Below are positions 3,251-46,049 of a stretch of DNA of 49,985 bases, piece by piece; the first letter of the stretch is position 1, and each line of letters starts with the position of its first letter. The notes beneath the pieces are model-generated. The model was given only the letters and a program-made list of their open reading frames with translations. It searched no databases and was not told the DNA's origin. The position numbers were made by a program, and so were the translations under genes. This stretch comes from Pseudomonadota bacterium (GTDB taxonomy: Bacteria; Pseudomonadota; Gammaproteobacteria; Steroidobacterales; Steroidobacteraceae), in contig JABBNZ010000011.1 in assembly GCA_019352035.1 (NCBI GenBank), positions 1 through 49,985 of the forward strand. The letters are read 5' to 3'.

Positions 3251-3268
3251 ATCCGCATTCCTACGGAT
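3251..3268 (-). promoter_or_regulatory. Inverted heptamer site A between glgP and hsp20
   Basis: The + strand reads ATCCGCA-TTCC-TACGGAT, two inverted heptamers (TGCGGAT and TACGGAT) four bases apart. A possible extended -10, TGC-TATGTT, lies at 3288-3296. The site centre is 32 bases upstream of the first base of TATGTT, so it would sit near -44 for hsp20, as expected for an activator touching the -35 region. Related sites occur before several other genes in this window. Binding by the local FixJ-type regulator is an inference. Confidence 0.55.
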
Positions 3269-3333
3269 CGAACCGGCCGCGCCGCGCTGCTATGTTGTTT
3301 TGCGATCAGACCGACATACTTGAGGAGACTGCC

Positions 3334-3774
3334 ATGAGCATGGTTCGTTGGGATCCGTTTGCAAATCTGGACGACATGTTTGCACGCATGCCGAATTTGG
3401 TGGGCCGCTGGCCGCGGCTGAGCGGCGATGGCGACAGCGGGGTCGAGTGGGCCCCCACGGTCGACATCAGCGAGACCGACGCGGAGTATCTGCTGAAGGC
3501 GCAGCTGCCGGCAGTGAAGAAGGAGGACGTGCACATCACGTTCGACGATGGAATGCTGACCATCAGCGGCGAGCGCAAGCAGGAGAAGGAGGAGAAGGGC
3601 GAGAAGTACCATCGCATCGAGAGCCTGCGCGGTGCCTTCTCGCGCAGCTTCTCGCTCCCCGATGCGATCGATGCCGGCGCCATCCGGGCCGAGGGCAAGG
3701 ACGGCGTGATCACGGTTCACGTGCCAAAGAGCAAGGCCGAGCCGCGCAAGGCCCAGGAGATCAAGATCCAGTAA
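3334..3774 (+). CDS. Small heat-shock protein, Hsp20/alpha-crystallin family
   Basis: This 146-residue protein is an ATP-independent holdase. After an N-terminal MSMVRWDPFANLDDMFARM segment (a WDPF motif typical of class A bacterial sHsps), the alpha-crystallin domain runs from about residue 40 to 135. It contains VDISETDAEYLLKAQLPAVKKEDV, the GMLTISGERK strand and GAFSRSFSLPDAID. The tail ends EIKIQ, an IxI-like anchor for oligomer assembly. The start at ATG 3334 is preceded by GAGGAG at 3322-3327 with ideal spacing. The longer open frame upstream is the complement of glgP and is not coding. It corresponds functionally to mycobacterial HspX in the DosR regulon. Confidence 0.95.
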   Translation: MSMVRWDPFANLDDMFARMPNLVGRWPRLSGDGDSGVEWAPTVDISETDAEYLLKAQLPAVKKEDVHITFDDGMLTISGERKQEKEEKGEKYHRIESLRGAFSRSFSLPDAIDAGAIRAEGKDGVITVHVPKSKAEPRKAQEIKIQ

Positions 3775-3776
3775 GG

Positions 3777-3805
3777 GACCGTCCTTCGATGTCCGGGCGA
3801 CGGTC
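3777..3805. terminator. Possible weak stem between convergent hsp20 and acyl-CoA synthetase genes
   Basis: GACCGTC at 3777-3783 and GACGGTC at 3799-3805 form a 7-bp perfect stem with a 15-base loop just after the hsp20 stop. There is no T-run, so it may only stabilise transcript ends. The whole convergent gap is 61 bases. Confidence 0.25.
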
Positions 3806-3835
3806 GGGCAGGCCGCCGCCCTCCCTTCGTGCGGC

Positions 3836-6541: not shown

Positions 6542-6570
6542 GCCAGATCCCTGTCTGCCCAGGGGCAGCG

Positions 6571-6618
6571 TACGGATGGCGGCCCGGGTCCCGCCATACG
6601 TGTAGGTACGCATGGCGG
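6571..6618. promoter_or_regulatory. Inverted heptamer site D plus flanking half-site between acyl-CoA ligase and usp
   Basis: The + strand at 6596-6613 reads ATACGTG-TAGG-TACGCAT, the 7-4-7 arrangement seen at site A. It lies inside a longer inverted repeat: CCGCCATACG at 6591-6600 and CGCATGGCGG at 6609-6618, with 9 of 10 arm bases pairing across 8 bases. A further copy of the right half, TACGGATGGCGG, stands at 6571-6582. The region serves two divergent genes (starts at 6541 and 6674). A poor -10 candidate, GAAGAT, lies at 6636. Confidence 0.5.
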
Positions 6619-6673: not shown

Positions 6674-7663
6674 ATGTCCACCATCCGCCGCATCCTGGTC
6701 GCGGTGAAAGACCCCTGGGCGCGGTCGCTGCCGGCAGTGGAGAAGGCGGCGCAGCTCGCCCGCTCCCTCGGGGCGCGGGTGCAGCTCTTCCACGCCCTGT
6801 CGGAGCCTCTCTACATCGACGCGAGCGAGGCCAGCGGTGTCGCGCTGCCGGCGCTCGAGCACACCGCGCACGAGCGCGCCGCAAGCCGGCTGGAGGTGCT
6901 CGCGCAGCGGCTGCAGAAATCGGGGATCCGTACGGAATCCGCGGCGCAATGGGACTATCCGCCCCATGAGGCGGTGGTGCGCGCCGCCCGGCGCTTTCGC
7001 GCCGATCTCATCGTCGCCGCGCGGCACCCGGGCGCACACCACCTCACCTGGCTGCTGCGCTTCACCGACTTCGAGCTGCTGCGTCTCGCTCCCGTCCCGG
7101 TGCTCCTCGTCAAGACGCGCGGCAAGTACGATCGCCCCGCCGTACTGGCGGCTGTCGATCCCAGCCGCGCCTACTCCAAGCCCCTGCGGCTCGACCGCGA
7201 GATCCTGCGCAGCGCGACCGAGATCACGGCAGCCCTCAAGGGCTCGCTGCACGCCCTCTACGCGTTCAATCCGATGCCGGTCGCGGTCATGGACGGGGGA
7301 CTGCCGCTCTCCGGGACGGCGGAAGTGATCGCGGCCGACGCGCAGGCGCGTGCGAAGAAGGCGCTGACCGGCGCGTTGAACGGCACCTCGATTCCGGCGT
7401 CGCGCCGGCATCTCATACCGCGGCATCCGATCGATGCGATCGAAGGCGCGGCGGAGCGCATCGGCTGCGGCATCGTCGTCATGGGCGCGATCTCGCGCTC
7501 GGGCCTGAAGCGCCTGGCCCTCGGCAACACCGCCGAGCGCGTATTCGACAGCCTGCCATGCGACCTGTTGGTGGTGAAGCCCAGGAGCTTCACGAGCCGG
7601 GTGCCGCGCGCGCGACGCGGGCCGCAGCTCTTCACGCTGCCGATCATCCAGCCCGGAATGTGA
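6674..7663 (+). CDS. Universal stress protein, tandem UspA domains
   Basis: The 329-residue protein has two UspA folds. The first begins IRRILVAVKDPWARSLPAVEKA and ends with VPVLLVKT; the second starts around residue 155 (VLAAVDPSRA) and carries GIVVMGAISRSGLKRLALGNTAERVFDSLPCDLLVVK, a G-x2-G-x9-G(S/N)xxE-like nucleotide-loop pattern. The second domain therefore probably binds ATP, while the first looks degenerate at that loop. It is cytosolic. Tandem Usp proteins are hallmarks of hypoxia and starvation islands. The gene follows an inverted heptamer site and its start is the only ATG compatible with the N-terminal beta strand. Confidence 0.92.
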   Translation: MSTIRRILVAVKDPWARSLPAVEKAAQLARSLGARVQLFHALSEPLYIDASEASGVALPALEHTAHERAASRLEVLAQRLQKSGIRTESAAQWDYPPHEAVVRAARRFRADLIVAARHPGAHHLTWLLRFTDFELLRLAPVPVLLVKTRGKYDRPAVLAAVDPSRAYSKPLRLDREILRSATEITAALKGSLHALYAFNPMPVAVMDGGLPLSGTAEVIAADAQARAKKALTGALNGTSIPASRRHLIPRHPIDAIEGAAERIGCGIVVMGAISRSGLKRLALGNTAERVFDSLPCDLLVVKPRSFTSRVPRARRGPQLFTLPIIQPGM

Positions 7664-11702: not shown

Positions 11703-13159
11703 TCGAGCTGTCGTTCCTTCTCGGCATTCCGGCGGCCGGCGCGATCGCGCTGGCGCTCTGGGGCGCGCGCGGCGATGCGCCGGAGATGAACGCGGCATTC
11801 AGCCTCGGCACCTTTGCCGCGGCGTGCGCGCTCACGCTGCGCGTCATCGCCCACGGACCGCAGCTTCTGTGGCGTGAGCAGTTCTTCATCGATGCGTTCA
11901 ACGTCTTCCTGGTGGCGCTGACGGCGTTCGTCGGCCTGACGACATCGCTCTTCTCACGCCCCTACATGCGCGTGGAGGTGGCTCACGGCAGGCTGAACCC
12001 GGGCCGGCTGCGGCTCTACCACAGCATGTACCAGCTCTTCATGCTGACGATGCTCACCGCACTGACCACCAACAACATGGGGCTTCTCTGGGTCGCCATG
12101 GAGGGAGCGACGCTCTCCACCGTTTTGCTGGTGACGCTCTACCGTACGCCGCAGAGCCTGGAGGCGGGCTGGAAGTATTTCATCCTCTGCGGCGTCGGGA
12201 TCGCGCAGGCGCTCTTCGGTACGATCCTCCTCTACTTCGCCGCCGAGAAGGTGCTCGGTGCCCAGGGGGTGGCGGCGCTCGAGTGGACGCGCCTGGATGC
12301 CGTCAAATCACAGCTCGAGCCGACCGTGCTCGCGCTGGCGTTCGTCTTCCTCCTCGTCGGCTACGGCACCAAGGCCGGACTGGCGCCGCTTCACAGCTGG
12401 CTTCCCGACGCGCACGCCGAGGGGCCGACGCCGATCTCCGCCGTGCTGTCAGGACTGCTGCTCAACGTTGCGCTCTATGCGGTGGTGCGCTGCAAGGTGC
12501 TGGTCGAGGGCTCGGTCCATTCGGCGCTGCCCTCGCGGATGCTGATGGGATTCGGACTGCTGTCGGTCGTGCTGGCCTCCCTCCTGCTCTTTCGCCAGCG
12601 CGACATCAAACGGCTCTTCGCCTACTCCTCCATCGAGCACATGGGGCTCGCGACCTTCGCGTTCGGTCTCTCGGGACCCGTGGCCACCTTCGCGGCGCTG
12701 CTGCACATGACGGTGCACTCGCTCACCAAGTCCTCGATCTTCTTCACGGTCGGCCATGCGGCGCAGAAGGCAGGCTCGCAGCTCGTGGACGACATTCGCG
12801 GCCTCATCACGCTCTCGCCGACGGTCGGCTGGGGCCTGATGATGGGCACCCTCGCGATCCTCGGCCTGCCGCCCTTCGGGGTGTTCGCGAGCGAGTTTCT
12901 GATCCTGACGACCGCCATGCGCCAGCAGCCGTGGTCGATTCCGATCCTGCTGCTCGCGCTCGGCATCGCTTTCGCCGCAATTTTCCGCAGGGTGCAGCCG
13001 ATGGTGTTCGGCGACACTCAGGCGCGCCGCCTGCCGCATGCGCCGGCGCTGCTGCCGGTGTTCGCGCACCTCGCGATCGTGCTCCTCCTGGGACTGTACA
13101 TCCCGCCATATCTCGCCGACTGGTACCGGGCGGCCGCCCACCTGATCGGAGGACGCTGA
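11699..13159 (+). CDS. hyfF: HyfF-like antiporter subunit (ND4/ND5 family)
   Basis: The 486-residue product is a second ND4/5-type antiporter subunit. It carries WVAMEGATLSTVLLVTLYRTPQSLEAGWKYFILC, the GYGTKAGLAPLHSWLPDAHAEGPTPISAVLSGLLLNVALYAV signature with conserved lysine and histidines, RDIKRLFAYSSIEHMG and a C-terminal GLPPFGVFASEFLIL helix. Its shorter length and the GLLLNVALYA variant separate it from HyfB and place it with HyfF/HycQ. The start ATG 11699 overlaps the hyfE stop. Two antiporter-like subunits in one complex mean two potential ion channels. Confidence 0.9.
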   Translation: MIELSFLLGIPAAGAIALALWGARGDAPEMNAAFSLGTFAAACALTLRVIAHGPQLLWREQFFIDAFNVFLVALTAFVGLTTSLFSRPYMRVEVAHGRLNPGRLRLYHSMYQLFMLTMLTALTTNNMGLLWVAMEGATLSTVLLVTLYRTPQSLEAGWKYFILCGVGIAQALFGTILLYFAAEKVLGAQGVAALEWTRLDAVKSQLEPTVLALAFVFLLVGYGTKAGLAPLHSWLPDAHAEGPTPISAVLSGLLLNVALYAVVRCKVLVEGSVHSALPSRMLMGFGLLSVVLASLLLFRQRDIKRLFAYSSIEHMGLATFAFGLSGPVATFAALLHMTVHSLTKSSIFFTVGHAAQKAGSQLVDDIRGLITLSPTVGWGLMMGTLAILGLPPFGVFASEFLILTTAMRQQPWSIPILLLALGIAFAAIFRRVQPMVFGDTQARRLPHAPALLPVFAHLAIVLLLGLYIPPYLADWYRAAAHLIGGR

Positions 13160-13162
13160 GCC

Positions 13163-14689
13163 ATGCCGCTCACCAAATGGTGGGGTTGCGCGCGGGAACT
13201 GCCGGGCGCGCCGCGAACCCGCCGAATCGGGCTGACGGTCGGGGATTGGAGTCCGTGCACCAGCGATGTCGCCGCGAGCGGGGGACGGCTTCTCGCGATG
13301 TGGGCTTCGGCCTGCGCCGAGAACTCGCCGGATCCGCCATCCGGCCGCGGCCCGGGCGGCGTGCAGGAAGTTTACGCCGCGTTCCTGACGGACCGCGGCA
13401 TCCTCATCATCGAGCTGCCGCTCGAAAGCGCTGCTGCCTGCGCAATCCCCCAGGCCGACTATCCCGGCATCGAAGCCCTGTTTCCCTGCGCCTCCCGCAT
13501 GCAACGCGCGATGGCGGAAACCTCGGGCCTGCGCTCGAGCGACCCGGATCGCCGGCCGTGGCTGCGGCATCCGCCGGAGGCTTACGGGTTCATCCGCGTC
13601 GAGGGCGAGGGCGTGCACGAGATCGCGGTCGGACCCGTGCACGCGGGCACGATCGAGCCCGGGCATTTCCGCTTCTCGGTCGTGGGCGAGAAGGTGCTCA
13701 GGCTGGAGGAGCGCTTCGGCTACAAGCACAAGGGGGTGGAGCGGCGCTTCGCCGGGATGCCGCTTCTCGAGGGCCACCGCCTGGCCGCGCGGATCGCCGG
13801 TGATTCCACGGTCGCTTACGCGTGGTCGTACTGTCAGGCGCTGGAAGGGATGGCGGGCCATCGGATTCCCCCGCGCGCCGCAGCGCTGCGTGCGCTCTTT
13901 CTGGAGCTCGAGCGCATCGCCAACCATCTCGGCGATCTGGGCGCCCTCGGCAACGACGCCGGCTTCGCCTTCGGCCTGACGCAGTTCTCGCGGCTCAAGG
14001 AAGATCTGCTGCGCTCGGTCTCACAGGCGTTCGCGCAACGCTATCTGATGGATGCGGTGGTGCCTGGAGGCACACGGGACGACCTCTCTGCGACGAGGGC
14101 CGGGAGCCTTGCCGCGCGAATCGCGGCCGTCGCGCGTGAGGCGGCCGAGCTCCGGGCCATCTACGAGGATCACACCGGCGTGCGCGACCGCTTCACCGGC
14201 GCCGGAATCCTGACACCGGAGCTCGCCCTGCGGCTGGGCGTCCTGGGGCTCGCGGGGCGGGCCAGCGGCCAGGCGCTCGATGTCAGGATCGATTTCCCGT
14301 GTGCGCCCTATGACCAGCTTGCACCAACCCGGGTGGTGCGTCACGAAGGCGACGTGGCCGCTCGCGTCGCCGTGCGATTCGATGAGCTTGCCGAATCCTG
14401 CCGGTTGGCACGCGCGCTGCTCGCCTCGCTCCCGGCAGGCCCGCACCTGGCATCGCTGCAGCCTCCTGCGGAGGGCTCCTTCGGCACGGGCGTCGTCGAG
14501 GGCTGGCGCGGCCCGGTGTTCGTGGCGCTCGCGGCGGGGCCGCACGGCAGGATCAACCGCTGTCACCCGCATGATCCTTCCTGGCAGAACTGGCCGGCGA
14601 TCGAGCATGCCATTCTTGGCAACATCGTCGCCGACTTCCCGCTCATCAACAAATCGTTCAACCTCGCCTACAGCGGGGTCGATCTTTGA
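13163..14689 (+). CDS. hyfG: HyfG/HycE-like large subunit lacking NiFe-site cysteines
   Basis: The 508-residue protein has an N-terminal NuoC-like region (about 1-140) fused to a NuoD/hydrogenase-large domain (about 145-508), as in HycE and HyfG. Core signatures are GPVHAGTIEPGHFRFSVVGE, GYKHKGVERR and ELERIANHLGDLG. The two cysteine pairs that hold NiFe in true hydrogenases are absent. The first motif reads RIAGDS (R210-S215) where RICGIC is expected. The C-terminal DPCxxC region reads NLAYSGVD, with A502 and G505 in the cysteine positions, and the protein ends three residues later. It therefore cannot bind NiFe in the known manner. Like NuoD, it may instead serve a quinone- or unknown-acceptor site. 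No maturation protease gene is present nearby. Confidence 0.9.
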   Translation: MPLTKWWGCARELPGAPRTRRIGLTVGDWSPCTSDVAASGGRLLAMWASACAENSPDPPSGRGPGGVQEVYAAFLTDRGILIIELPLESAAACAIPQADYPGIEALFPCASRMQRAMAETSGLRSSDPDRRPWLRHPPEAYGFIRVEGEGVHEIAVGPVHAGTIEPGHFRFSVVGEKVLRLEERFGYKHKGVERRFAGMPLLEGHRLAARIAGDSTVAYAWSYCQALEGMAGHRIPPRAAALRALFLELERIANHLGDLGALGNDAGFAFGLTQFSRLKEDLLRSVSQAFAQRYLMDAVVPGGTRDDLSATRAGSLAARIAAVAREAAELRAIYEDHTGVRDRFTGAGILTPELALRLGVLGLAGRASGQALDVRIDFPCAPYDQLAPTRVVRHEGDVAARVAVRFDELAESCRLARALLASLPAGPHLASLQPPAEGSFGTGVVEGWRGPVFVALAAGPHGRINRCHPHDPSWQNWPAIEHAILGNIVADFPLINKSFNLAYSGVDL

Positions 14690-14699
14690 GACTGCGGCC

Positions 14700-15239
14700 A
14701 TGCTGAAGACCCTGCGCAAGATCCGTGAAGTAGGCGTGATCTCCGAGACGGCACCGCAACCCGAGGAGTTGCTGCGCGTCCGGGACGCCCTCGATGCGCG
14801 CATCCGCTCCGTTCTTGGACGGGCGCTCTGCATCCGTCACGTCGATGCCGGCTCCTGCAACGGCTGCGAGCTCGAGATCCAGGCGCTCAACAACCCGATC
14901 TACAATCTCGCGGGGCTCGGGGTCCGTTTCGTGGCGAGCCCCCGGCACGCCGACCTGCTGCTCGTGACCGGCCCGGTTGCAGCCAACATGGAAGCCGCGC
15001 TGCGCCGGGTCTACGATGCAACGCCGGACCCGAAGCTGGTCGTGGCGATCGGGGACTGCGGCTGCACGGGGGGAATCTTCGCCTCGCCGGACGCGGGGTG
15101 CGGATCAGGCCCCTCCTCTTGCGGCAAAGTGTCGAACGTCATCCCCGTCGACGTCGCCGTGCCCGGCTGTCCGCCGACGCCGGTGCGGATCATTCAGGGC
15201 ATACTGACGGCGATCGGTGCCGGTGCGAAAGGCCGCTGA
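14700..15239 (+). CDS. hyfI: HyfI-like small subunit with proximal [4Fe-4S] ligands (NuoB-like)
   Basis: The 179-residue product is the NuoB/HycG/HyfI homologue. Cysteines for one [4Fe-4S] cluster are intact: C53 and C56 in AGSCNGCELEIQ, C120 in GDCGCTGGIF, and C157 in PGCPPTPVRIIQG. The tandem cysteines of NuoB are absent at the first site, which groups it with hydrogenase-type small subunits. The ATG at 14700 follows the hyfG stop by ten bases. So the cluster next to the vanished NiFe site has been kept, which argues that the complex still transfers electrons. No HyfA or HyfH ferredoxin-type subunit is encoded here, so the electron source is unclear. Confidence 0.9.
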   Translation: MLKTLRKIREVGVISETAPQPEELLRVRDALDARIRSVLGRALCIRHVDAGSCNGCELEIQALNNPIYNLAGLGVRFVASPRHADLLLVTGPVAANMEAALRRVYDATPDPKLVVAIGDCGCTGGIFASPDAGCGSGPSSCGKVSNVIPVDVAVPGCPPTPVRIIQGILTAIGAGAKGR

Positions 15240-15240
15240 C

Positions 15241-15963
15241 CTATTGCGAGAGACCCGCAGGCGAGTCCATCGGGATGCCCGACATCCTCTCGACCCAGAG
15301 CAGATGGTCGACCACGCCGCGCACGCCGGGCATGTTTTCCGCGAGCACCCGGATCGCCTCGCGCTGCCGCGGGTCGGTCACCACGCCCAACAGCTCGACG
15401 ATGCCGCCCTTGACCGTCAGGTCGACCGAGGTGTCGCTGCGAGCCCAGGACTGCGCCTTCAGGGAAGCAAGTATGCGGCCGCGCAGCTGCGCATCCGCCA
15501 CCGGGCGCGCACCCGCCGCGGGCAGCAGCTTCGCCAGCTCGCGCAATAGGTCCGCCCGCGTCACGATGCCCGCGACCCGGCCGTTCTCGAGCACCGGGAC
15601 CTGCTTGATCCGGCGCGATTCCATGAGCGCGACGACCTCCGCCAACTCGGTGTCCGGAGTCACGGAAACGACCGGGACGGTCATGACCTGCCCGACCCGC
15701 ACTGCATGCGATCGCACGTAGTTGAGCGCCTCGGTTCCGGATGCCCCGAGCCAGCCGCGCCAGGCCGGCATCCGCTTCTCCGTGCCGAGCTCCGCGCGCC
15801 GCACAAAATCGCCTTCGGTGACGATCCCCACCGGGGCGCCTGACTGATCGACCACCGGCAGCCCGCTGATGCGGTGATCGAGCATCAGGCGCACGGCGTC
15901 CCTGATCGGAGCACGGGGCGTTACCGTGACGACCCCACCCTGCATGACCTCTCGGACTTTCAT
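15241..15963 (-). CDS. CBS-domain pair fused to a BON domain
   Basis: This 240-residue protein starts with two CBS motifs: MKVREVMQGGVVTVTP...VDQSGAPVGIVTEGDFVRR and VGQVMTVPVVSVTPDTELAEVVALM...NGRVAGIVTRADLLREL. A BON domain (about 160-230) follows with GRILASLKAQSWARSDTSVDLTVKGGIVELLGVV. CBS pairs sense adenine nucleotides and BON domains often bind lipid or peptidoglycan, so the fusion may be an energy-state sensor at a surface; its partner is unknown. ATG 15963 overlaps the stop of the upstream Usp gene (ATGA), so the two are coupled. Its stop meets the hyfI stop with one base between. Confidence 0.85.
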   Translation of the reverse strand: MKVREVMQGGVVTVTPRAPIRDAVRLMLDHRISGLPVVDQSGAPVGIVTEGDFVRRAELGTEKRMPAWRGWLGASGTEALNYVRSHAVRVGQVMTVPVVSVTPDTELAEVVALMESRRIKQVPVLENGRVAGIVTRADLLRELAKLLPAAGARPVADAQLRGRILASLKAQSWARSDTSVDLTVKGGIVELLGVVTDPRQREAIRVLAENMPGVRGVVDHLLWVERMSGIPMDSPAGLSQ

Positions 15964-16859
15964 GCAGCCCGCGATCCGCGCACCGGCTTCACGAGCAGAC
16001 AGTCGCAATCGAGCGTCTCGATCAGCTTTCCGGTCAGCGTGCCGACCAGCGCGGTCAACGCCTTGCGGTGGGTCAGCGCGCCGAGAACGATGAGATCGAA
16101 ATCGCGCCGCTGCGCGAAATCCGGCAGCACAACCGCGGGCTCACCGCGGATCAGATGAATGGCCGCGGCCTCGACCCCGGCGTCCTGCGTCCGCTCGAGG
16201 AGCGCGGCGCGCCGCGATGCCTCCTCCTGCGGCTGGGCGGGATCGAAGAGGCTGGCATGGACGATCTCCAGATCGCCCCCCGCGCTCTGCGCGACCGCCG
16301 CGGCCGTTCGCAGAATGGTGCGCGTGAGCTCAGGCGCCTCGGCGGCCGAAAGGTCAACCGCGGCGGCGATCAGCGGATGTGACTTCCAGACTCTGCCATG
16401 CGTGAGGAGCAGCGGCGAGGGACAGGCGCGGACCAGCTCCCAGTCATTGGCGTCCAGTCCCGCCGCACTGTCGCCGCCGACAGCGCGTCTGTTGCGGTGG
16501 GCGCTTCCGGTGCCGCGGACGACCAGATCCGGATGGTCTCGCTCCACCGCGTGCACGATTCCGGCGTACAGCGGGCTCTCGCATGCGACGCTCATGGACG
16601 CTTTGACATCCTTCACGTTCAGCGAGTGCCAGAGTGAGTCGAGGAAGCGGCGCGATTCGTCGAGGCAGGTTTCCCTGGCGCGCGCCGCGGCGCGAGGGTC
16701 GTACTGATGCTGACGCGCATAGGCCCGCTCCGAATCGCAGTGGAAGAGCTCGACGTCGCCGCCGCTCAAGCGCGCCAGCGCGACGGCCTTGGCCGCAACC
16801 TCCACCGGCCGCTCATCGCGATCGACGGCCGCCATGATCGATCCAAAGGACTGTTTCAA
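15960..16859 (-). CDS. Universal stress protein, tandem UspA domains (TTG start)
   Basis: The product is 299 residues with two Usp domains. The first begins KQSFGSIMAAVDRDERPVEVAAKAVALARLSGGDVELFH; the second begins HPLIAAAVDLSAAEAPELTRTIL and ends RRDFDLIVLGALTHRKALTALVGTLTGKLIETLDCDCLLVKP. The usual ATP loop GxxG-x9-GS is only partly kept (GALTHRK...GTLTGK). I place the start at TTG 16859 because a 9-base ribosome site, AGGAGGTGA, stands five bases before it (16865-16873), whereas the upstream ATG at 16892 has no such signal and overlaps atpG. The gene is coupled to the CBS-BON gene downstream. Confidence 0.85.
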   Translation of the reverse strand: MKQSFGSIMAAVDRDERPVEVAAKAVALARLSGGDVELFHCDSERAYARQHQYDPRAAARARETCLDESRRFLDSLWHSLNVKDVKASMSVACESPLYAGIVHAVERDHPDLVVRGTGSAHRNRRAVGGDSAAGLDANDWELVRACPSPLLLTHGRVWKSHPLIAAAVDLSAAEAPELTRTILRTAAAVAQSAGGDLEIVHASLFDPAQPQEEASRRAALLERTQDAGVEAAAIHLIRGEPAVVLPDFAQRRDFDLIVLGALTHRKALTALVGTLTGKLIETLDCDCLLVKPVRGSRAA

Positions 16860-16864
16860 CGGGG

Positions 16865-16873
16865 TCACCTCCT
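16865..16873 (-). promoter_or_regulatory. Full-length Shine-Dalgarno deciding a TTG start
   Basis: On the minus strand AGGAGGTGA is fully complementary to the 16S rRNA tail and is spaced five bases from TTG 16859. It overlaps the atpG stop codon, so the Usp gene can be translated right after the ATPase operon. Confidence 0.7.
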
Positions 16874-17781
16874 CACCGGATTGATAGCGCATCCGTTGCG
16901 GGGCCGCATCCGCAAAGATACGGATCGCCGTCACCCTCGGGAGTGACGGCGAGCTCTCCGGTCACGAGGTCGAGCAGCTCCGCGGTCACCTCCTCCTGGC
17001 GCGCCCTCGACCCCTCGAGGCGCAGCGTCTGCAGGCGCTTGCCGACGTTGTCATGCGCAGCCTCCATCGCGGCAAAGCGCGCGCCGTTCTCGGCGGCCAG
17101 AGACTCGACGGCCGCTGCCGTGAGCCGCGCCAGGATGTATTCGGCCGTGATCCTTTCGAGGAGCTCCGCCGCGGACAGGTCATGGAGCGGTGGCGGCCCG
17201 GACCGCTCGCGCTGCGGCGCGATCTCGAGCGGAAAGAGCCGATGGCGCTGGATATCGGACGTGCCGCTGCGCTGATACCGCGCAAACACGACTTCCGCGT
17301 GCGCCGTCTCGCCGAGCGCGATGGCGGGATAGAGCGCCTCCTGGAGCTGACGCACGGTTTGCGGGATGCTCGCGAGCCGTGTCGCCATCGAATGAGCCGA
17401 TGTCGGAGAAAGGTCCCGCTCCGCAGCGAGAGCGGCGCCACGGCTGCCGGCGATGATGAGCGTGTCGCCCGGTCCCGGCGATGCGGCCTCGAGCAGTCGC
17501 TCGTTGAAGCCGCCTACGAAGCCGTGCTCGCTCGCGAATACGACGATCGCCCGGCGGCTGCCGGGCGCGGGCCGCTCGCCCGGGACCATGCGCGCCTCGG
17601 CCGCGATCGCGAGCGCCTGGCGCACCGCCCTGGCCAACGCGTCACCGTATTGCCGCACGCCGGCCAGAGCGCGCGCCGCTTCCTGCACCCGCATGCTGGC
17701 GATCGCGCGCATGGCGCCGACGATCCGTTGCAGCTCCTCCATGCTCGCGACATGCCGTTGTATCTCGGCGAGACGCATCAC
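16873..17781 (-). CDS. atpG: N-ATPase gamma subunit
   Basis: The 302-residue F1 rotor shaft. The N-terminal coiled helix has [31 protein letters not shown] and the C-terminal helix has [56 protein letters not shown], the classical gamma end with its RQxxITxEL-like segment. The middle Rossmann part contains [20 protein letters not shown]. It is the last gene of atpDCQRBEFAG, the order typical of N-type ATPases. Its start overlaps the atpA stop by four bases. Confidence 0.92.
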
Positions 17782-20061: not shown

Positions 20062-20067
20062 GGCCGC

Positions 20068-20307: not shown

Positions 20308-20322
20308 TGGATCCTCTTGCAG

Positions 20323-21544: not shown

Positions 21545-23458
<1,914 letters not shown>

Positions 23459-24330: not shown

Positions 24331-24348
24331 ATCCGCATTGCTACGCAT
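24331..24348 (-). promoter_or_regulatory. Inverted heptamer site B before the host-attachment gene
   Basis: The + strand reads ATCCGCA-TTGC-TACGCAT, differing from site A at only two of eighteen bases. It continues as GGCGG, so the string CGCATGGCGG (24344-24353) is identical to that at 6609-6618. It stands about 70 bases before ATG 24418. Confidence 0.55.
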
Positions 24349-24909: not shown

Positions 24910-25977
24910 CTACGCCGGCGGCGGGTCCCGAAGCGCCGCCGCGAGTTGGATGTGACGCAGCGCGTCGGCCAGATAGGAATACGCCCGGGTCTTCCACGCG
25001 CGCCGTTCGCCGGCGAAGGCCCGGTCCCGCAGGTGCCAGGCCGCGATCTGCGCCCGCACGGCGGCTCTGCGGCTCATGTAGAAATGCATCAGGATCGGCG
25101 GCACCGGATCGCCGGCGAGGCGGCGGTAGCGCGCGAGCAGCCCTTCCCCCGCCGCCGCCGCCGCGAGCCGCGCGCATTCGAGCGCGAGGAACGCGAGCTC
25201 CTCCGCCGGATCGAGCCGGCGGAGGCCGCGGTCGAACTCCAGGCAATCGATCACGCAGGCTCGCATCGAGGAGGTGCCGAGAAAGACGTGCTCGGGGCGC
25301 AGATCGCCGTGACCGTCCAGCAGCCGTGCGCCCCGGCCGGCGAGCGCCCGCGCATGGCGGTTGACGAAGTCGAGCTGCGCCCGGGAAAGATTGACGATCC
25401 GGCTGCGGCTCAAGCCGAGATCGCGCGCGCAGAGCTCATCCGCGTTGCGCCGGATCTCACGAGAGAGCCGCGCGCGATAAGCGCCGTCGGTCAGCGGGCG
25501 GCGCTGCGCATGCCGAAAGAACGCTGCGAGAGTCGCCGCGAGCCGATCGAGGTCCGTGGGGCGCAGCCCGCCCGCCGCGATGACGCGGTCGAGCATGCGT
25601 GTCGCGGGCAGCCGGCGCATCTGCACCAGCCAGTCGGCGACGCGGGAGCCGGCCATCGCCCGCAGGCTCAGCGAGCCTTTCGCATCGCGGTACAGCGGCA
25701 CGACCCGTAGGTAGACGTGGGGCGCCAGGCGGCGGTTGAGCCGCAGCTCATCGCGGCACGCGCGCTCCCGGCGTGCGAGCGTCCGATAGTCCATCGCGCC
25801 CTGCCGCAGCGGCTTCTTGAGCTTGTAGGCGCGGGTCCCCGTGAGGAACACAAACGCGAAATGCGTTTCGATGATCTCGACGGGCCGCCGCCGCCCCGCG
25901 TAATGACACGGATCCGCGAGCCACGCGACCTTCGCGTGCAAGACCGCTTCCCTCGAGCCGATGGGATTGGGAGGCAT
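24910..25977 (-). CDS. Aminoglycoside-phosphotransferase-like kinase (COG2187 type), no AAA domain
   Basis: A 355-residue protein of the APH-like fold. It opens with VEIIETHFAFVFLTGTRAYKLKKPLRQGAMDY, where the lysine pair is in the nucleotide-binding strand, followed by DELRLNRRLAPHVYLRVVPL. The catalytic loop is GHGDLRPEHVFLG and the metal-binding part is ACVIDCLEFDRGLRRLDPAEELAFLALEC. The same layout forms the N-terminal half of the fusion protein at 38433-40010, which also has a P-loop kinase domain. The substrate is unknown. The start is taken as ATG 25977; its ribosome site is poor. Confidence 0.82.
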   Translation of the reverse strand: MPPNPIGSREAVLHAKVAWLADPCHYAGRRRPVEIIETHFAFVFLTGTRAYKLKKPLRQGAMDYRTLARRERACRDELRLNRRLAPHVYLRVVPLYRDAKGSLSLRAMAGSRVADWLVQMRRLPATRMLDRVIAAGGLRPTDLDRLAATLAAFFRHAQRRPLTDGAYRARLSREIRRNADELCARDLGLSRSRIVNLSRAQLDFVNRHARALAGRGARLLDGHGDLRPEHVFLGTSSMRACVIDCLEFDRGLRRLDPAEELAFLALECARLAAAAAGEGLLARYRRLAGDPVPPILMHFYMSRRAAVRAQIAAWHLRDRAFAGERRAWKTRAYSYLADALRHIQLAAALRDPPPA

Positions 25978-26011
25978 GGAGGAGTCTTCATGGCGGCGGC
26001 GCGTGAGGTGC

Positions 26012-26028
26012 ATTCGCATTAGTACGGA
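26012..26028 (-). promoter_or_regulatory. Inverted heptamer site C upstream of the class II RNR operon
   Basis: The + strand reads ATTCGCA-TTAG-TACGGAC (through 26029), again a 7-4-7 pair. It lies between the APH-like gene (starting at 25977 on the minus strand) and nrdJ (26349). A possible -10, GTATGC, begins at 26047. If it drives nrdJ the leader would be about 290 bases. Confidence 0.5.
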
Positions 26029-26146
26029 CTCGCACCCGGCCCGCACGTATGCCGCAGCGGCGACTACTGCTTCCGCGGGCGCAGCCGCCGTGGAACGCTA
26101 CCGCACAGCCGCTCGCGAGCCTGCGAGTCGATCCGAGGTCGCCGTC

Positions 26147-31570: not shown

Positions 31571-31588
31571 CTGCGTAGAAGTCCTTAT
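31571..31588 (+). promoter_or_regulatory. Inverted heptamer site F between polX and ppsA
   Basis: Read on the minus strand it is ATAAGGA-CTTC-TACGCAG; on the plus strand TGCGTAGAAGTCCTTAT. The TGCGTAGAA part is identical to that of the site before the LOG gene (43736-43744). A half-site, CAATGCGTATGGCG, lies 40 bases downstream at 31628-31641. Confidence 0.45.
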
Positions 31589-31689
31589 TGACGGACCGCT
31601 CCCGAGCCGTCGGGGCCGATTGCCAACAATGCGTATGGCGCCGCCGCGGGGCGGGCGGCCACCATGGCCTACCCGATCTGGAGTCGTCC

Positions 31690-34228: not shown

Positions 34229-34882
34229 ATGAGAGCAGACAGCGACATCGAGCGGGACGTGAAAGCCGAGCTCAAGTGGGCGCCGGAGCTCGACGAGACC
34301 GACATCGCCGTCAAAGTCGGCAACGGTGTCGTGGCTCTCACCGGTTATGCCTCGAGCGCGCACGAGAAATATCGGGCCGAGGCGGCGGTGAAGCGGGTCG
34401 CCGGCGTGGCCGCGGTGGCGAATGACCTTGCGGTGCGGTGGCCGCTCGGCGGCAATCCCACCGATCCGGAAATCGCGCGCGATGCGCTCACAGCGCTCAA
34501 GATCGAGCTGCCGCTCGCCTGGGAGAGCATCAGGCCGGTCGTCAAGCAGGGACACGTGGGGCTCGAGGGCACGGTGGACTGGCATTACGAGCGCGAGCGC
34601 GCGGAAGGGGCCGTGAGGCGCGTGCGCGGCGTGCTGAGCGTGCGTAACTCCATCAGCCTCAAGCCCCGCCGGCCTCCCGCCGAGATCAAGCGCAGGATAG
34701 AGGAGGCATTTCGCCGCAATGCGCTCATCGACGCCCAGAAGATCACGATCGACGCCCAGGGCGATGACATCACGCTGCGCGGGGAGGTCCGCTCGTGGGC
34801 GGAACGCGACGAGGCGCAGCAGGCCGCCTGGGCCGCGCCCGGCGTCGCGAAGGTGCACAACGAGCTCACCGTCAGGGTTTGA
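34229..34882 (+). CDS. Triple BON-domain protein (OsmY-like, cytoplasmic)
   Basis: The 217-residue protein has three BON repeats, each beginning with a charged helix and ending in an alternating strand: [41 protein letters not shown], then [39 protein letters not shown], then [39 protein letters not shown]. There is no signal peptide, unlike OsmY. BON proteins protect membranes under osmotic stress. ATG 34229 follows GGAGGG at 34216-34221. It sits 5 bases before groEL. Confidence 0.88.
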
Positions 34883-34887
34883 CGGCC

Positions 34888-36507
34888 ATGACCGCAAAGC
34901 AGGTGCTGTTCCAATCCGCGGCGCGGGAAAAGGTGCTGCGGGGCGCGACGCAGCTCGCGGATGCCGTGCGCATCACGCTCGGACCGAAGTCGAAATCCGT
35001 CCTGATTCAGAAGAAGTGGGGCGCGCCCATCGTCTGCAACGACGGCGTGACCATCGCGAAGGAGATGGAGCTCGAGGACCCCGAGGAGAACCTCGGCGCG
35101 CAGATGCTGCGTCAGGCCGCGGAGAAGACGGGCGATGTCGTCGGTGACGGCACGAGCACCTCGACCGTGCTCGCTCACGCCATCTACGCCGATGGCGTGC
35201 GCAATGTGGCCGCGGGCGCCAGCGCCATCGACCTCAAGCGCGGTCTCGATCGCGGGCTCGAGGCGGCCGTGCAGGCGCTGAAGACCATGGCGAAGCCGGT
35301 CGAGAGCCGCAGGGAGAAGGCGCAGGTCGCGACGATCTCCGCGCACAACGACCCCGCGATCGGCGAGCTCGTCGCCGACGCGATGGAGAAGGTCGGCGGC
35401 GACGGCGTCATCACGGTAGAGGAATCAAAGACCACCGAGACGGCGCTCGAGGTGGTGGAAGGGCTGCAGTTCGATCGCGGTTATCTCTCGCCCTACTTCG
35501 TCACGGACTCCGCCGGCATGGAAGCCGTGCTGGAGGACGCCTACGTCCTGATCTGCGACCGCAAGCTCAACATCCTCAAGGACATGTTGCGGCTCCTCGA
35601 GGAAGTGGCGAAATCGGGCAGGCCGATCCTCTTCATCGCGGAGGAGATCGAGGGCGAGGCGCTGGCAACGCTCATCGTCAATCAGATCCGAGGGGTGCTG
35701 AAGAGCGCGGCGGTCAAGGCGCCAGGCTACGGCGACCGGCGCAAGGCGATGTTACAGGACATCGCCACGCTCACCGGCGGCGAGGTCATCTCCGAGGAGC
35801 TCGGCATCAGGCTCGAGGACGTGAAGCTCAGCCAGCTCGGCCGCGCCGGCCGCATCGTGGTCGACAAGGACGCCACGACGATCATCGGCGGCGCGGGCGA
35901 GAAATCCCGGATCGAGGCCAGGATCGGGACGCTGCGCAAGGAGATCGAAGATACCAAGAGCGATTACGACCGCGAGAAGCTCGAGGAGCGTCTCGCCAAG
36001 CTCTCGGGCGGGGTCGCCGTGATCCGGGTGGGCGCACCGTCTGAATCCGAGATGAAGGCGAAGAAGGAAGCGCTGGACGATGCGATCAGCTCCACCAAGG
36101 CCGCCGTGGCCGAGGGCATCGTCCCGGGCGGCGGGCTTGCGCTCCTGCGCGCGACCGGCGCAGTGGCTGCGCTCGAGGCGCAATGCACGGACGATGAGCG
36201 GACCGGCGTGCAGATCCTGCGCCGGGCGCTGGAGGCGCCGACGCGCCAGATCGCGGAGAACTCCGCCGCGGACGGCGGAGTGGTGGTCGATCGCATGTTG
36301 AATGGCACGGGCAACGTCGGCTTCGATGCGGCCCAGAAGCGCTTCGTCGATCTCTTCTCGGCCGGTATCGTCGACCCGGTGAAGGTCGTGCGCATCGCAC
36401 TCGAGAACGCCGTCTCCGTCGCAAGCGTGCTCCTGCTCACCGAGGCGACGATGACCGAGCGCCCGCAGAGGCCGTCGGAGCACGCGGCGGCCGAGCCGCA
36501 GATGTGA
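34888..36507 (+). CDS. groEL: GroEL-type chaperonin, paralogue without the GGM tail
   Basis: A 539-residue type I chaperonin subunit. The nucleotide site has [48 protein letters not shown]; the apical part has [25 protein letters not shown]; the late motif is [12 protein letters not shown]. It starts [27 protein letters not shown] rather than MAAKDVKF. The C-terminal GGM repeat is replaced by a polar tail ([16 protein letters not shown]), and no groES lies beside it. It is therefore a specialised second chaperonin, with a changed cavity floor. It is cotranscribed with CBS and pfk genes. Confidence 0.93.
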
Positions 36508-42906: not shown

Positions 42907-42910
42907 GAGC

Positions 42911-43699
42911 TCATCTCTCGCTGACCGTTGGCGCGGCCTCGTGATGCGAGTGGGCGAACGCCGGCGACGGCTCTTCTTTCGCTTCCTCCCCGAGCCGCCG
43001 CTGCAGGCAGGCCAGCGCCCCGGCCGGATCCTCGGCGTATTCGAACAGGCGCAGATCCTCCCGCGCGATCATGCCATGGCGGCAGAGCGCCTCGAAGTTC
43101 ACGATCTCCTTCCAATACGCCGACCCGTACAGGATCACCGGAATCGAGCGCGACAGCTTGCGCGTCTGGGCAAGCGTCAGGATCTCCGTCAGCTCGTCCA
43201 AGGTGCCGAATCCGCCGGGAAACGCAACGAGCGCCCGAGCCAGATGCGCGAACCAGAGCTTGCGCATGAAGAAGTAGTGGAACTCGAACGCGAGCTCGCG
43301 CGTGACGTGGGGATTCGCGTGCTGCTCATAAGGCAGGCTGATGTTGAGGCCGATCGTCTTGCCGCCGGCCTCCGCCGCACCGAGGTTGGCCGCCTCCATG
43401 ATGCCGCCGCCGCCTCCGGAGCAGATGACGAAGCGGTGCGCGTGCGACGGGAGGGACTTCGACCATGCGGTGATGAGCCGGGCAAGCTCGCGCGCCTCCT
43501 CGTAATAGCGGCCGAGCGGCCCCGAGGGCTGAAGCCGCGCCGAGCCGAAGAAGACGATCGTGTCGTGTATGCCGGCGCGGCGAAAGCGATGCAGGGGCTC
43601 GAGGTATTCCGCCAGAATCCGCAGCGGCCGCGCTTCGTCGCTCTCGACGAATGCCCGATGCTCGTAGGCCAGCTCGGGGCGGGGGTAATGTTCCGGCAT
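42911..43699 (-). CDS. LOG-family Rossmann protein (TIGR00730-like)
   Basis: The 262-residue protein has DTIVFFGSARLQ, VICSGGGGGIMEAANLGAAEAGGKTIGLNISLP and the catalytic motif FPGGFGTLDELTEILTLAQ (PGGxGTxxE), defining nucleoside-5'-monophosphate phosphoribohydrolases of the LOG family. It has a long N-terminal segment, as in the larger LOG proteins. ATG 43699 has AGGG just upstream. Purine-nucleotide cleavage would link it with prs and pncB. A heptamer site lies upstream. Confidence 0.88.
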   Translation of the reverse strand: MPEHYPRPELAYEHRAFVESDEARPLRILAEYLEPLHRFRRAGIHDTIVFFGSARLQPSGPLGRYYEEARELARLITAWSKSLPSHAHRFVICSGGGGGIMEAANLGAAEAGGKTIGLNISLPYEQHANPHVTRELAFEFHYFFMRKLWFAHLARALVAFPGGFGTLDELTEILTLAQTRKLSRSIPVILYGSAYWKEIVNFEALCRHGMIAREDLRLFEYAEDPAGALACLQRRLGEEAKEEPSPAFAHSHHEAAPTVSER

Positions 43700-43703
43700 G
43701 CCC

Positions 43704-43718
43704 TGGAACCTAGGTCCA
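43704..43718. promoter_or_regulatory. Near-palindrome at the start of the LOG gene
   Basis: TGGAACCTAGGTCCA contains the perfect 8-base palindrome ACCTAGGT (43708-43715). It begins five bases before the start codon on the minus strand. CCTAG also occurs in the site before the histidine kinase (46016-46020). Confidence 0.35.
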
Positions 43719-43734
43719 AAGAACGTGGGCCGGT

Positions 43735-43752
43735 ATGCGTAGAACTGCCTAT
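43735..43752 (+). promoter_or_regulatory. Inverted heptamer site G before the LOG gene
   Basis: Read on the minus strand it is ATAGGCA-GTTC-TACGCAT. The 7-4-7 spacing and TACGCAT match sites B and D. A hexamer TAGGTT lies 32 bases from the centre on the minus strand, the same offset as TATGTT at site A, but it would leave almost no leader before ATG 43699. Confidence 0.5.
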
Positions 43753-43770
43753 GTACGCTGCCGCTGAGCG

Positions 43771-43816
43771 ATGCGGAACATACGTAGCGACAGGGCACGG
43801 GGGGGCAGGCGACACT
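43771..43816 (+). promoter_or_regulatory. Predicted promoter of the FixJ-type regulator with activator site
   Basis: ATGCGGA-ACA-TACGTAG at 43771-43787 followed by CGAC, then GACACT at 43811-43816. Nineteen of the first 21 bases match the block before the kinase gene at 46004, and the hexamer lies 40 bases from the block start in both. GCGACA at 43787-43792 is a poor -35 with an 18-base spacer. TACGTAG also resembles the core of known FixJ sites. Confidence 0.55.
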
Positions 43817-43889
43817 GCTGCGCCACTTCCGCCCATTCGTCAAAGCGGCGAGAATGACAGGCAGCAGACCAGGTCGTAGGTAGCCTTCC

Positions 43890-44516
43890 ATGCATGAGCC
43901 CACCCCCACCGTCTTCGTGGTCGACGACGACAACGCGGTCCGCAATTCCCTGCGCCTGCTTTTGAAATCCGTGGGCCTGGCCTCCCAGCCGCTCGGCTCG
44001 GCCGCGGAGTTCCTCGAGACCTACCGCCCGAGCCAACCCGGATGTCTCGTGCTCGATGTGCGCATGCCCGGGATGAGCGGCCTCGAACTGCAGCGGGAAC
44101 TGAATCTGCGGGGGGCGACGATTCCGGTCATCTTCATCACCGGCCACGGCGACATCCCGATGGCGGTGGAAGCCATGCAACAGGGCGCCTTCGATTTCCT
44201 GGCGAAGCCCTTCCGCGACCAGGAGCTGATCGACCGTGTTCAGCGCGCGCTGGCCAAGGACGGCACGACGCGCGCGGCGCTCACGGAGCGCGAGCGCATC
44301 CGCGAGCGACTGGAGTCCCTCACCCCGCGCGAGCGCGAGGTGCTCTCCCTGATGACCCAGGGCAAGCCCAACAAGATCATGGCTCACGAGCTCGGCGTCA
44401 GCCAGCGCACCGTCGAGATCCATCGGGCGCGGGTCATGGAAAAGAGCGGCGCCAGCTCCCTCGCCCAGCTCGTGCGCATGGTCATGGACCAGGAGCCCGA
44501 GAACGCCGCCGGGTAG
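43890..44516 (+). CDS. FixJ-type two-component response regulator
   Basis: A 208-residue regulator. The receiver domain has VFVVDDDNAV, the phospho-acceptor D56 in CLVLDVRMPGMSG, FITGHGD and FDFLAKPF with the conserved lysine. The LuxR-type helix-turn-helix is LTPREREVLSLMTQGKPNKIMAHELGVSQRTVEIHRARVMEK. Length and linker are typical of FixJ/TodT/StyR. It is divergent from the LOG gene and carries its own copy of the conserved promoter block, suggesting autoregulation. Two histidine kinases are nearby (46072 and 46925). It is the best candidate reader of the heptamer sites in the window. Confidence 0.93.
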   Translation: MHEPTPTVFVVDDDNAVRNSLRLLLKSVGLASQPLGSAAEFLETYRPSQPGCLVLDVRMPGMSGLELQRELNLRGATIPVIFITGHGDIPMAVEAMQQGAFDFLAKPFRDQELIDRVQRALAKDGTTRAALTERERIRERLESLTPREREVLSLMTQGKPNKIMAHELGVSQRTVEIHRARVMEKSGASSLAQLVRMVMDQEPENAAG

Positions 44517-44546
44517 AGCCCGGCCCCAGCGTTCCAGCAGGGACCC

Positions 44547-44565
44547 GCCTCCGGGCCCGGGAGGC
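44547..44565. terminator. GC-rich hairpin after the response regulator gene
   Basis: GCCTCC (44547-44552) and GGAGGC (44560-44565) form a 6-bp stem around GGGCCCG. There is no clear T-run (ATTGGCTTAT follows), so termination would be weak. Confidence 0.3.
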
Positions 44566-44594
44566 CCCGCATTGGCTTATCATCCATCGGATCC

Positions 44595-45968
44595 ATGCCA
44601 CATACGACTCGCATGCCGGGGAGCGCCGGCGCTCTGCTCACCGATCTCTATCAGCTCACCATGGCTCATGCCTACTTCCGGGAAGGCATGACCGAGACCG
44701 CCGTGTTCGAGCTGTTCGTGCGCCGGTTGCCGCCGGCGCGCCGCTTCCTCGTCGCCGCCGGCCTCGAGCGGGCTTTGGAGTTCATCGGAGCACTCCGCTT
44801 CACGGCGGCGGAGTTGGAGTTTCTCGCCGCGCAAGGCATCTTCGCGCAGCCGTTTCTCGATTATCTGAGCACCTTCCGCTTCACCGGGACGGTGCACGCC
44901 ATGCCGGAGGGCAGCCCCTTCTTCGCGGAAGAGCCGATTCTGCGGGTCACCGCCCCGATCATAGAGGCCCAGCTGCTGGAGAGCCGCCTCATCAACATCA
45001 TCCATTTCCAGACTCTGATCGCCAGCAAGGCGGCCCGCTGTGTGATAGCGGCGGACGGACGCCGGCTGCTCGATTTCGGCATGCGGCGCGCGCATGAGGG
45101 GGATGCGGCACTCCTCGCCGCGCGCGCCGCCTATCTGGCGGGCTTCGATGCCACGGCCACAGTGGAGGCCGGACGGCAATGGGGAATCCCGATCTGCGGC
45201 ACGGTCGCCCATTCCTACATCGAAGCCCACGACGACGAGGAGCAGGCGTTCCGCAGCTTCACGAGTGGCATGCCCTCCCGCACGACGCTGCTCATCGACA
45301 CGTACGACACGATCCGCGCCGCCGGGAAGGTCGCGCGCCTGCAGAGCGAGCTCAATGCGCAGGGCTCGCCGCACGGTGTCGAGTCGGTGCGCATCGACAG
45401 CGGCGACCTGGGCGCGCAGGCGAGAGAGGTGCGGCGGATCCTCGACGAGCACGGCTGCCGGGACGTGCGCATTGCTTTGAGCGGCAACCTCGATGAGCAT
45501 CGGATCGCCGCTCTCGTGTCTTCCGGGGTGCCGGCGGACGCGTTCGGCGTTGGAACCTCCCTGGGCGTTTCGGCCGACGCGCCCGCGCTCGACATGGCCT
45601 ACAAGCTGCAGATGTACGCAGACCGGCCGCGCCGCAAGCGCTCGCCCGGCAAGGTCACCTGGCCAGGCGCGAAGCAGGTATTCCGCGAATACGACACGCT
45701 GGGGGCGGCCTCATGCGACCGGATCGTGCTGGAGGGCGAGCAGGCCGCCGGAGCGCCGCTCCTCACCGAGGTGATGCAGGCCGGCCAGGCCGTTGCCGCC
45801 TCGAGGCCCCTGGAAGCGATCCGGAGGGATTGCCAGCATCAGGTCCGAGCGTTGCCGCAATATGTACTGCGGCTGGAGGAGCGGCCGGCCGCCGGCAACG
45901 GCTCTCAGAGTTATCCCGTGACCCGGTCGGCCGCGCTCGAGGCGCTGGCGCGCGCGTCCTCGAGCTGA
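44595..45968 (+). CDS. pncB: Nicotinate phosphoribosyltransferase
   Basis: The 457-residue enzyme joins nicotinate to PRPP in NAD salvage. Motifs are LLTDLYQLTMAHAYFREGM, the LDFGMRRAHEGDAALLAARAAYLAGFDAT active segment, ICGTVAHSYIEAHDDEEQAF with the regulatory histidine, and VRIDSGDLGAQAREVRRILD. It belongs to the long PncB type. The start ATG 44595 has no obvious ribosome site. It lies between the response regulator and kinase genes; PncB2 (Rv0573c) of the DosR regulon is the parallel. Confidence 0.93.
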   Translation: MPHTTRMPGSAGALLTDLYQLTMAHAYFREGMTETAVFELFVRRLPPARRFLVAAGLERALEFIGALRFTAAELEFLAAQGIFAQPFLDYLSTFRFTGTVHAMPEGSPFFAEEPILRVTAPIIEAQLLESRLINIIHFQTLIASKAARCVIAADGRRLLDFGMRRAHEGDAALLAARAAYLAGFDATATVEAGRQWGIPICGTVAHSYIEAHDDEEQAFRSFTSGMPSRTTLLIDTYDTIRAAGKVARLQSELNAQGSPHGVESVRIDSGDLGAQAREVRRILDEHGCRDVRIALSGNLDEHRIAALVSSGVPADAFGVGTSLGVSADAPALDMAYKLQMYADRPRRKRSPGKVTWPGAKQVFREYDTLGAASCDRIVLEGEQAAGAPLLTEVMQAGQAVAASRPLEAIRRDCQHQVRALPQYVLRLEERPAAGNGSQSYPVTRSAALEALARASSS

Positions 45969-46003
45969 GACGGATGGGGGGGCGGCCTGCCCGCGGCGCC
46001 GGC

Positions 46004-46049
46004 ATGCGGAACATACCTAGAGACGCGCGCGAGGCCCTGGCCCGATACT
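46004..46049 (+). promoter_or_regulatory. Predicted promoter of the sensor-less kinase with activator site
   Basis: ATGCGGA-ACA-TACCTAG at 46004-46020 followed by AGAC, then GATACT at 46044-46049, a fair -10. It is the twin of the block at 43771: the same 17-base core except one base and the same 40-base offset to the hexamer. Confidence 0.6.

Follow-up and report, generated by a model that had tools for sequence, protein, structure and literature searches.

A FixJ-box-like palindrome before stress genes of a probable Steroidobacteraceae bacterium, and its candidate FixJ-type regulator

The stretch of DNA analysed here, hereafter the window, comprises bases 1–49985 of contig C203 (49,985 nucleotides) in a genome of 4,499,376 bases and 217 contigs. 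The host bacterium probably belongs to the family Steroidobacteraceae; the nearest GTDB loci are metagenome-assembled genomes (MAGs) labelled Proteobacteria, Gammaproteobacteria or Steroidobacteraceae, and a homologue of the regulator discussed below (P0017, 97% identity) comes from a record labelled Steroidobacteraceae. The gene set of the window includes those for a small heat-shock protein (Hsp20), universal stress proteins (Usp), CBS-domain proteins, phosphofructokinase (PFK), class II ribonucleotide reductase (RNR) and phosphoenolpyruvate synthase, and it also holds genes for a FixJ/StyR-type response regulator and a hybrid sensor kinase (Table 1). Before several of the stress genes lies an 18-bp palindrome, the subject of this work, which we consider to be a candidate operator of that regulator. 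Gene starts are those of the longest open reading frames (ORFs) with codon-position GC, no gene finder having been used, and coordinates are window positions unless another contig or locus is named.

Table 1. Candidate operators and associated genes in the window; site scores are from the cross-genus matrix described in the text
Feature	Position	Strand	Remarks
Operator ATCCGCA-TTCC-TACGGAT	3251..3268	+	Score 25.4; exact match; between the Hsp20 gene (+) and an alpha-glucan phosphorylase gene (-)
Hsp20 small heat-shock protein, 146 aa	3334..3774	+	PF00011, E 2.4e-24; proposed target of 3251
Operator ATACGTG-TAGG-TACGCAT	6596..6613	+	Score 13.9; between an ADP-forming acyl-CoA ligase gene (-) and Usp1 (+)
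Usp1, tandem-Usp universal stress protein	6674..7663	+	PF00582
Usp2 universal stress protein	15960..16934	-	PF00582; longest ORF
Operator ATCCGTA-TCTT-TGCGGAT	16908..16925	-	Score 22.2; exact match; before Usp2
Weak site ATACGCA-CCTG-TACCTAA	24300..24317	+	Score 8.6, background; beside 24331; unsupported alone
Operator ATCCGCA-TTGC-TACGCAT	24331..24348	+	Score 23.5; before the baeRF/Host_attach gene 24418–24894
ORF of 378 aa, family not assigned	24910..26046	-	Directly behind operator 26012
Operator GTCCGTA-CTAA-TGCGAAT, as read towards ORF 24910–26046	26012..26029	-	Score 18.7
Operator ATAGGCA-GTTC-TACGCAT	43735..43752	-	Score 14.9; towards the LOG-family gene 42911–43945
FixJ/StyR-type response regulator, proposed operator-binding protein	43890..44516	+	REC (PF00072) and GerE helix-turn-helix (PF00196), both over cut-off
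Hybrid sensor kinase PAS-HisKA-HATPase-REC (HHK), candidate partner of the regulator	46619..48430	+	Pfam

The consensus of the palindrome is ATNCGYA-N4-TRCGNAT, that is, two heptamers around a 4-bp spacer. Exact copies number seven in the 4.5 Mb genome and none in the reversed control; with one mismatch the counts are 31 and 6, and a wider exact pattern, ATNCGNA-N4-TNCGNAT, occurs at eight places in the genome and nowhere in the control. Since reversal alters dinucleotides, the spacer was varied as a second control. In the window, a spacer of 4 gives three exact matches and seven with at most one mismatch, as opposed to 0 and 13 for the 24 other spacers summed. When two mismatches are allowed, the enrichment is slight (24 matches in the window, 15.1 in shuffles). 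The best-scoring of the 31 genome matches (28.0) is ATCCGTATTGATACGGAT on contig C93 (locus L031), before a CBS-domain gene; a weaker second site lies 24 bp away, the pair being at 727 and 751, and a third is at 165. Sites 24300 and 24331 also form a close pair, and contig C130 holds two operator matches (26151 and 31816).

For scoring, a cross-genus matrix was trained on eight distinct sites from genus g2 and one named relative (L045). Contigs C201, C93, C130 and C117 of the same genome, as well as most family stretches, had been chosen for holding hits, and spacer and density counts made on them are biased; the window and 40 unselected own contigs (482 kb) were not chosen by hits. Scores of at least 14 occur six times in the window (12 per 100 kb) vs three times in the unselected contigs (0.62 per 100 kb). 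The latter hold six hits at 13.5 or more, two of which lie outside predicted coding sequence near a gene start, and their 128 hits at 8 or more give the background level. The original prediction, which had proposed such a weight-matrix check, listed seven sites of a shared operator, and all seven sequences are present as written. Five of them (3251, 6596, 24331, 26012 and 43735) score well, whereas the other two are at background and unsupported: 24300 (8.6) as an independent operator, and 31571..31588 on the minus strand (ATAAGGA-CTTC-TACGCAG, 7.0). A further candidate at 31619 is weak (11.6). Site 16908, which precedes the second Usp gene, is a strong site that the list had missed.

Across 80 family genomes, 77 exact sites were found vs 9 matches of the reversed control, which constitute a real background, and 40 of the 80 genomes have a match. 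The match in L087 sits within a purL-like ORF (family assigned by eye). In 1.26 Mb around 80 relatives of the regulator, the exact pattern occurs four times at spacer 4 and 0–1 times at each other spacer; the same DNA gives no one-mismatch excess at spacer 4 (11 vs a mean of 8 and a maximum of 16). De novo counts of 5-mer palindromes by recognition-helix group, family loci included, gave no clean signal.

The sites are conserved before orthologous genes in other genera. For this comparison, a matrix trained on seven own-genome sites was applied to the upstream DNA of relatives' genes. Three near-duplicates (L042, L044 and L047) were left out, and hits had to include the N-terminal third and at least 150 bases of upstream DNA; divergent genes on one common site were each counted, in the non-target class as well, and the P value takes rows as independent. 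On this footing, the best upstream site scores at least 14 in 21 of 37 target-orthologue rows, compared with 5 of 85 non-target rows, four of whose five hits score 21 or more. All ten rows of CBS-domain genes related to C93:225–758 or C130:25633–26085 have a site, several of them on a common divergent one, as do all three baeRF-type orthologues and five of eight Usp2 relatives. The conservation goes beyond mere synteny, because the gene order around the target genes varies between genomes. Further genera (L218, L220, L221 and L224) have similar sites as well, close to genes for Usp, hybrid kinases or regulators. The earlier suggestion of a regulon of stress genes behind a common operator is thus sustained; the accompanying statement that the sites avoid coding regions has to be relaxed, since 16908 overlaps the last codons of an atpG-like ORF and several longest ORFs cross a site, probably through early start codons. 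The true start of Usp2 probably lies downstream of its operator.

The sites also stand at a preferred distance from a putative promoter element. With an approximate -10 matrix, 17 of 66 orientation-blind flanks of strong sites show a -10-like hexamer that starts 21–23 bases beyond the palindrome, where shuffles average 2.9 and none of 2000 reaches 17; other three-offset windows in the same flanks average 2.4 and reach at most 6. Counted by site, 18 of 33 have such a hexamer at offset 20–24 on one or both sides (4.2 under the null, with 0 of 1000 reaching 18), and a filter on flank identity removed none of the 33. If the hexamer is taken as -12 to -7, the operator would span about -52 to -35 with its centre at -42.5 to -43.5, i.e., at the -35 position. 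This is the placement expected for a class-II activator site, and about half of the sites keep the fixed distance of about 22 nucleotides. In the window, it is seen at 3251 (TATGTT, 22 nucleotides beyond, towards Hsp20), 16908 (TATCAA, 21 nucleotides, towards Usp2) and 43735 (TAGGTT, 22 nucleotides, towards the LOG-family gene). The -10 score at 3251 is 7.8 towards Hsp20 vs 4.7 towards the phosphorylase gene, and an AGGAG resembling a ribosome-binding site and an ATG start follow downstream; judged from these signals, the Hsp20 gene best fits as the target of this operator. At 43735, the score is 5.0 towards the LOG-family gene vs 3.2 towards the regulator gene.

Which protein might bind the palindrome? 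The FixJ-type protein encoded at 43890, already singled out by the original prediction, is the best candidate, and its binding is here deduced from sequence. Its closest PDB relatives are StyR (1yio, the closest) and FixJ (5xso). Of 37 window proteins scanned, no other has a domain of a DNA-binding regulator, and in the genome it matches only itself at E≤1e-30 among the 39 of 99 candidates that were scored. The recognition helix, SQRTVEIHRARVMEK, shows little variation among relatives of at least 65% identity, and L218 has SPRT. The main reason for assigning the sites to it is that, compared by eye from the centre, the half-site ATNCGYA shares the register of the FixJ box, GTAMGTA, with agreement at T-8, C/A-6, G-5, T/C-4 and A-3. 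Genomic distribution points the same way in part. No more than 5 kb separates at least seven of the 77 exact family sites from a regulator match, where about 0.4 would be expected (distances were compared by eye); four of the seven are in the two closest genera. Exact sites reach 0.74 per Mb in nine genomes, the present one included, with a regulator at least 76% identical, and 0.20–0.27 per Mb elsewhere. All four genomes of genus g2, which has many sites, encode a FixJ-type regulator at 80–82% identity. Over the 80 genomes, co-occurrence of regulator and site is weak (Spearman 0.26, or 0.23 without the own genome), because 72 of them have a regulator match. A phage search with the regulator returned nothing useful.

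Two observations from other MAGs concern the regulator and its box. In L106, labelled Thiobacillus denitrificans, AATCGTAGACCTACGGAT at 5412 is followed, again at an offset of 22, by TATAAA, and the contig holds a 53% identical relative of the regulator, a hint that Betaproteobacteria may have the box as well. In L054, labelled Verrucomicrobiaceae, a site scoring 17.6 (9930) lies just upstream of a 58% identical regulator with the same recognition helix, possibly a case of horizontal transfer.

The hybrid kinase at 46619–48430 is a likely phosphate donor for the regulator. Its matches lie within 3 kb of the regulator gene at 6 of 22 relatives' loci (L045, L050, L164, L170, L174 and L175, with L047 counted together with L174), and a match is also near the regulator in L218 and L221. 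Its PAS domain aligns with FixL PAS structures; the aligned His, in an MPE-x5-H stretch, presumably takes the position of the proximal haem ligand of FixL, and the Leu after IIGI is taken by us to replace the distal Arg.

Taken together, we estimate at roughly 70% the probability of the reading that the sites are operators of one regulator that uses the FixJ-box register, most likely the phosphorylated 43890 protein, which would bind as a dimer and activate stress promoters. In the proposed mechanism, the receiver Asp (residue 56 by count) would be phosphorylated by the hybrid kinase 46619–48430 or by another kinase. Two molecules of the phosphorylated regulator would together occupy the 18-bp palindrome, with the centre at about -42.5 to -43.5, replacing the -35 element, and thereby activate the promoters of Hsp20, Usp, CBS-domain proteins and the baeRF-type protein, and probably those of the cation ATPase and the acyl-CoA ligase. 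The signal, we infer, would be low oxygen or redox.

Several facts weigh against this assignment. First, the regulator scores 238.3 bits, below the NCBIfam FixJ cut-off of 255, and was therefore filed as FixJ-like rather than FixJ itself. Ten other GerE proteins in the genome exceed their cut-off, and a different kinase stands directly before the regulator in L046, L048, L049, L160 and L170. Second, site density is not raised in genomes with regulators of 62–76% identity, and eight genomes with no regulator match hold five exact sites (0.24 per Mb), so part of the counts is background. In none of 19 relatives does the DNA before the regulator gene hold a site of at least 14 (best 11.1), and general self-regulation was accordingly rejected; the exceptions fall outside that set, in L218 (15.7) and the distant L054. 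Third, sites 24331, 26012 (-10 score only 3.8) and 6596 have no convincing -10 element at the usual offset. Fourth, 16 of the 37 target rows have no site, among them all three phosphorylase rows, six of eight Usp1 rows (the other two, L160 and L174, score 20.3 and 20.4) and two of three cation-ATPase rows. The single relatives of the LOG gene (L045, best 6.0) and of the VIT-family gene likewise give 0 of 1 at the threshold of 14.

A different GerE regulator might bind a real operator, for example the NarL-type response regulator at 34575–35222 (minus) of C130, which is encoded beside a PAS-GAF hybrid kinase. Eleven GerE proteins of the genome are over cut-off, and both C130 operator matches lie on its contig. 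We nevertheless regard this as unlikely for the C130 regulator, the one of the ten others that was examined individually: just three of the 79 other family genomes (G018, G038 and G026) have a homologue of it above 50% identity among the matches listed. The best match is 40–42% in three of the four g2 genomes, although these are rich in sites and all have the FixJ-type protein; at 62–87% completeness, absence of a homologue from g2 is uncertain. Its recognition helix, SVHTIESHREKIR, differs too. NarL operators consist of inverted TACYYMT heptamers with a 2-bp spacer, half-sites unlike those found here, and ATNCGYA-type half-sites at spacer 2 give no exact match and one one-mismatch match in the window. 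The comparison with NarL 7-2-7 sites, which the original prediction had itself qualified as differing in spacer and bases, was hence dropped; the closest known operator found is the 18-bp FixJ box. As a side observation, the PAS-GAF kinase beside the NarL-type regulator (12514–15567 of locus L033, on C130) is a second hybrid kinase resembling the one at 46619–48430.

Slightly less probable is that the 43890 protein binds but represses, its site overlapping the promoter and blocking RNA polymerase. Repression from -42.5 is feasible too, and looping from two bound sites has been proposed as a way in which StyR represses (PMC2442086); close pairs of sites exist here at 24300/24331 and C93 727/751. 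The fixed -10 spacing with the operator at -35 is, however, the pattern of such activators as StyR, acting from about -40, and DevR, whose box overlaps -35 (PMC3029386); a separate -35 element was not sought.

It is improbable to a further degree that the palindrome is recognised by a protein of the Crp/Fnr type, such as FixK or Anr; the FixLJ-FixK-lxa cascade of Burkholderia may work in this way. Boxes of this class are inverted repeats too, in which a G stands equally far from the centre. A Crp-type FixK may govern the Burkholderia oxygen response (PMC6127331). Yet the half-site adjoins its spacer with CGYA, not TTGAT. No TTGAY-N4-RTCAA, i.e., Fnr-type, box occurs in 298,673 own bases, window included, no search for fixK itself having been made, and the Crp/Fnr domain is found in 0 of 37 window proteins scanned, the rest of the genome not being searched. 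Finally, that the sites are chance palindromes in GC-rich intergenic DNA, such as dinucleotide shuffles yield at two mismatches and as 24300 and 31571 may be, is barely credible for the exact sites: against it stand their number, the control with other spacers, the scores under a matrix from another genus and the conservation before orthologues.

A few other features of the window deserve mention. Among the top cross-genus-matrix matches, the PFK and class II RNR genes have no operator of their own, and the 378-aa ORF behind 26012 has no Pfam or NCBIfam match. A good operator match (17.3) at 29900–29917 falls within the PolX coding region and is probably due to chance. A second-type F-ATPase cluster, complete for the most part, occupies 16873–23431 on the minus strand. 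It opens with the beta-type gene and includes an atpI-like gene, an order we take to be N-ATPase-like; its 3' end overlaps the Usp2 operator.

We return to the preferred reading, direct activation by the 43890 protein, in the light of known systems. The FixJ motif is an 18-bp imperfect palindrome with the SELEX (systematic evolution of ligands by exponential enrichment) half-site GTAMGTAG (PMC4999443). Like the boxes of alphaproteobacterial fixK promoters, the present operator is an 18-bp imperfect palindrome in the GTAMGTA core register, paired with a REC-GerE regulator; unlike them, it has A instead of G at -9 and is variable at -7. FixJ sites were described before four genes in Rhizobiales and only before fixK in Caulobacterales (PMC4999443), whereas many stress genes appear to be direct targets here. 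StyR (STY2) of Pseudomonas fluorescens ST is the closest PDB relative of the 43890 protein and activates from about -40 (PMC2442086), close to the position proposed here, but serves one styrene catabolism operon.

The operator letters of StyR differ from those found here. The genes around the regulator (Hsp20, Usp, CBS and cation ATPase, with PFK and class II RNR as neighbours) resemble by analogy the mycobacterial hypoxia regulon; CBS-domain, RNR and ATPase genes also belong to the DosR regulon of mycobacteria. DosR/DevR and OsdR are likewise NarL/FixJ-type regulators, whose stress genes include those for Usp and heat-shock proteins and often lie close to the regulator's own, with a box over -35 (PMC3029386, PMC5069765). 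They differ in belonging to Actinomycetota and to the NarL subfamily, and their operator letters, compared by eye with the OsdR operator AGGGCCGATCGGCCCT (PMC5069765), are unrelated. The lxa locus of Burkholderia cenocepacia is a comparable island of Usp, alpha-crystallin and phosphofructokinase genes, in which all six Usp rose together at low oxygen and of which the alpha-crystallin and phosphofructokinase were likened to DosR by the authors (PMC6127331). There, FixLJ drives fixK (PMC5234846), and this Crp-type protein may govern the response; the operators described here look instead like direct FixJ-type boxes, which would make for a shorter circuit.

These parallels lead us to suggest, tentatively and at a little under even odds, that Steroidobacteraceae possess a DosR-like dormancy or hypoxia regulon of independent origin, in which a FixJ-type regulator itself, with no FixK in between, acts on some ten stress promoters from about -42.5. 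Among the best matches in open-licence literature, no published account of such a regulon was found. For a family known here largely from metagenome bins, the analysis puts forward a testable operator, the regulator that may act on it and the promoter layout of a stress regulon. A further suggestion is that a gene set of the DosR kind came under a FixJ-type regulator with no FixK step; if true, regulons of the dormancy type would have evolved repeatedly on the same protein fold.

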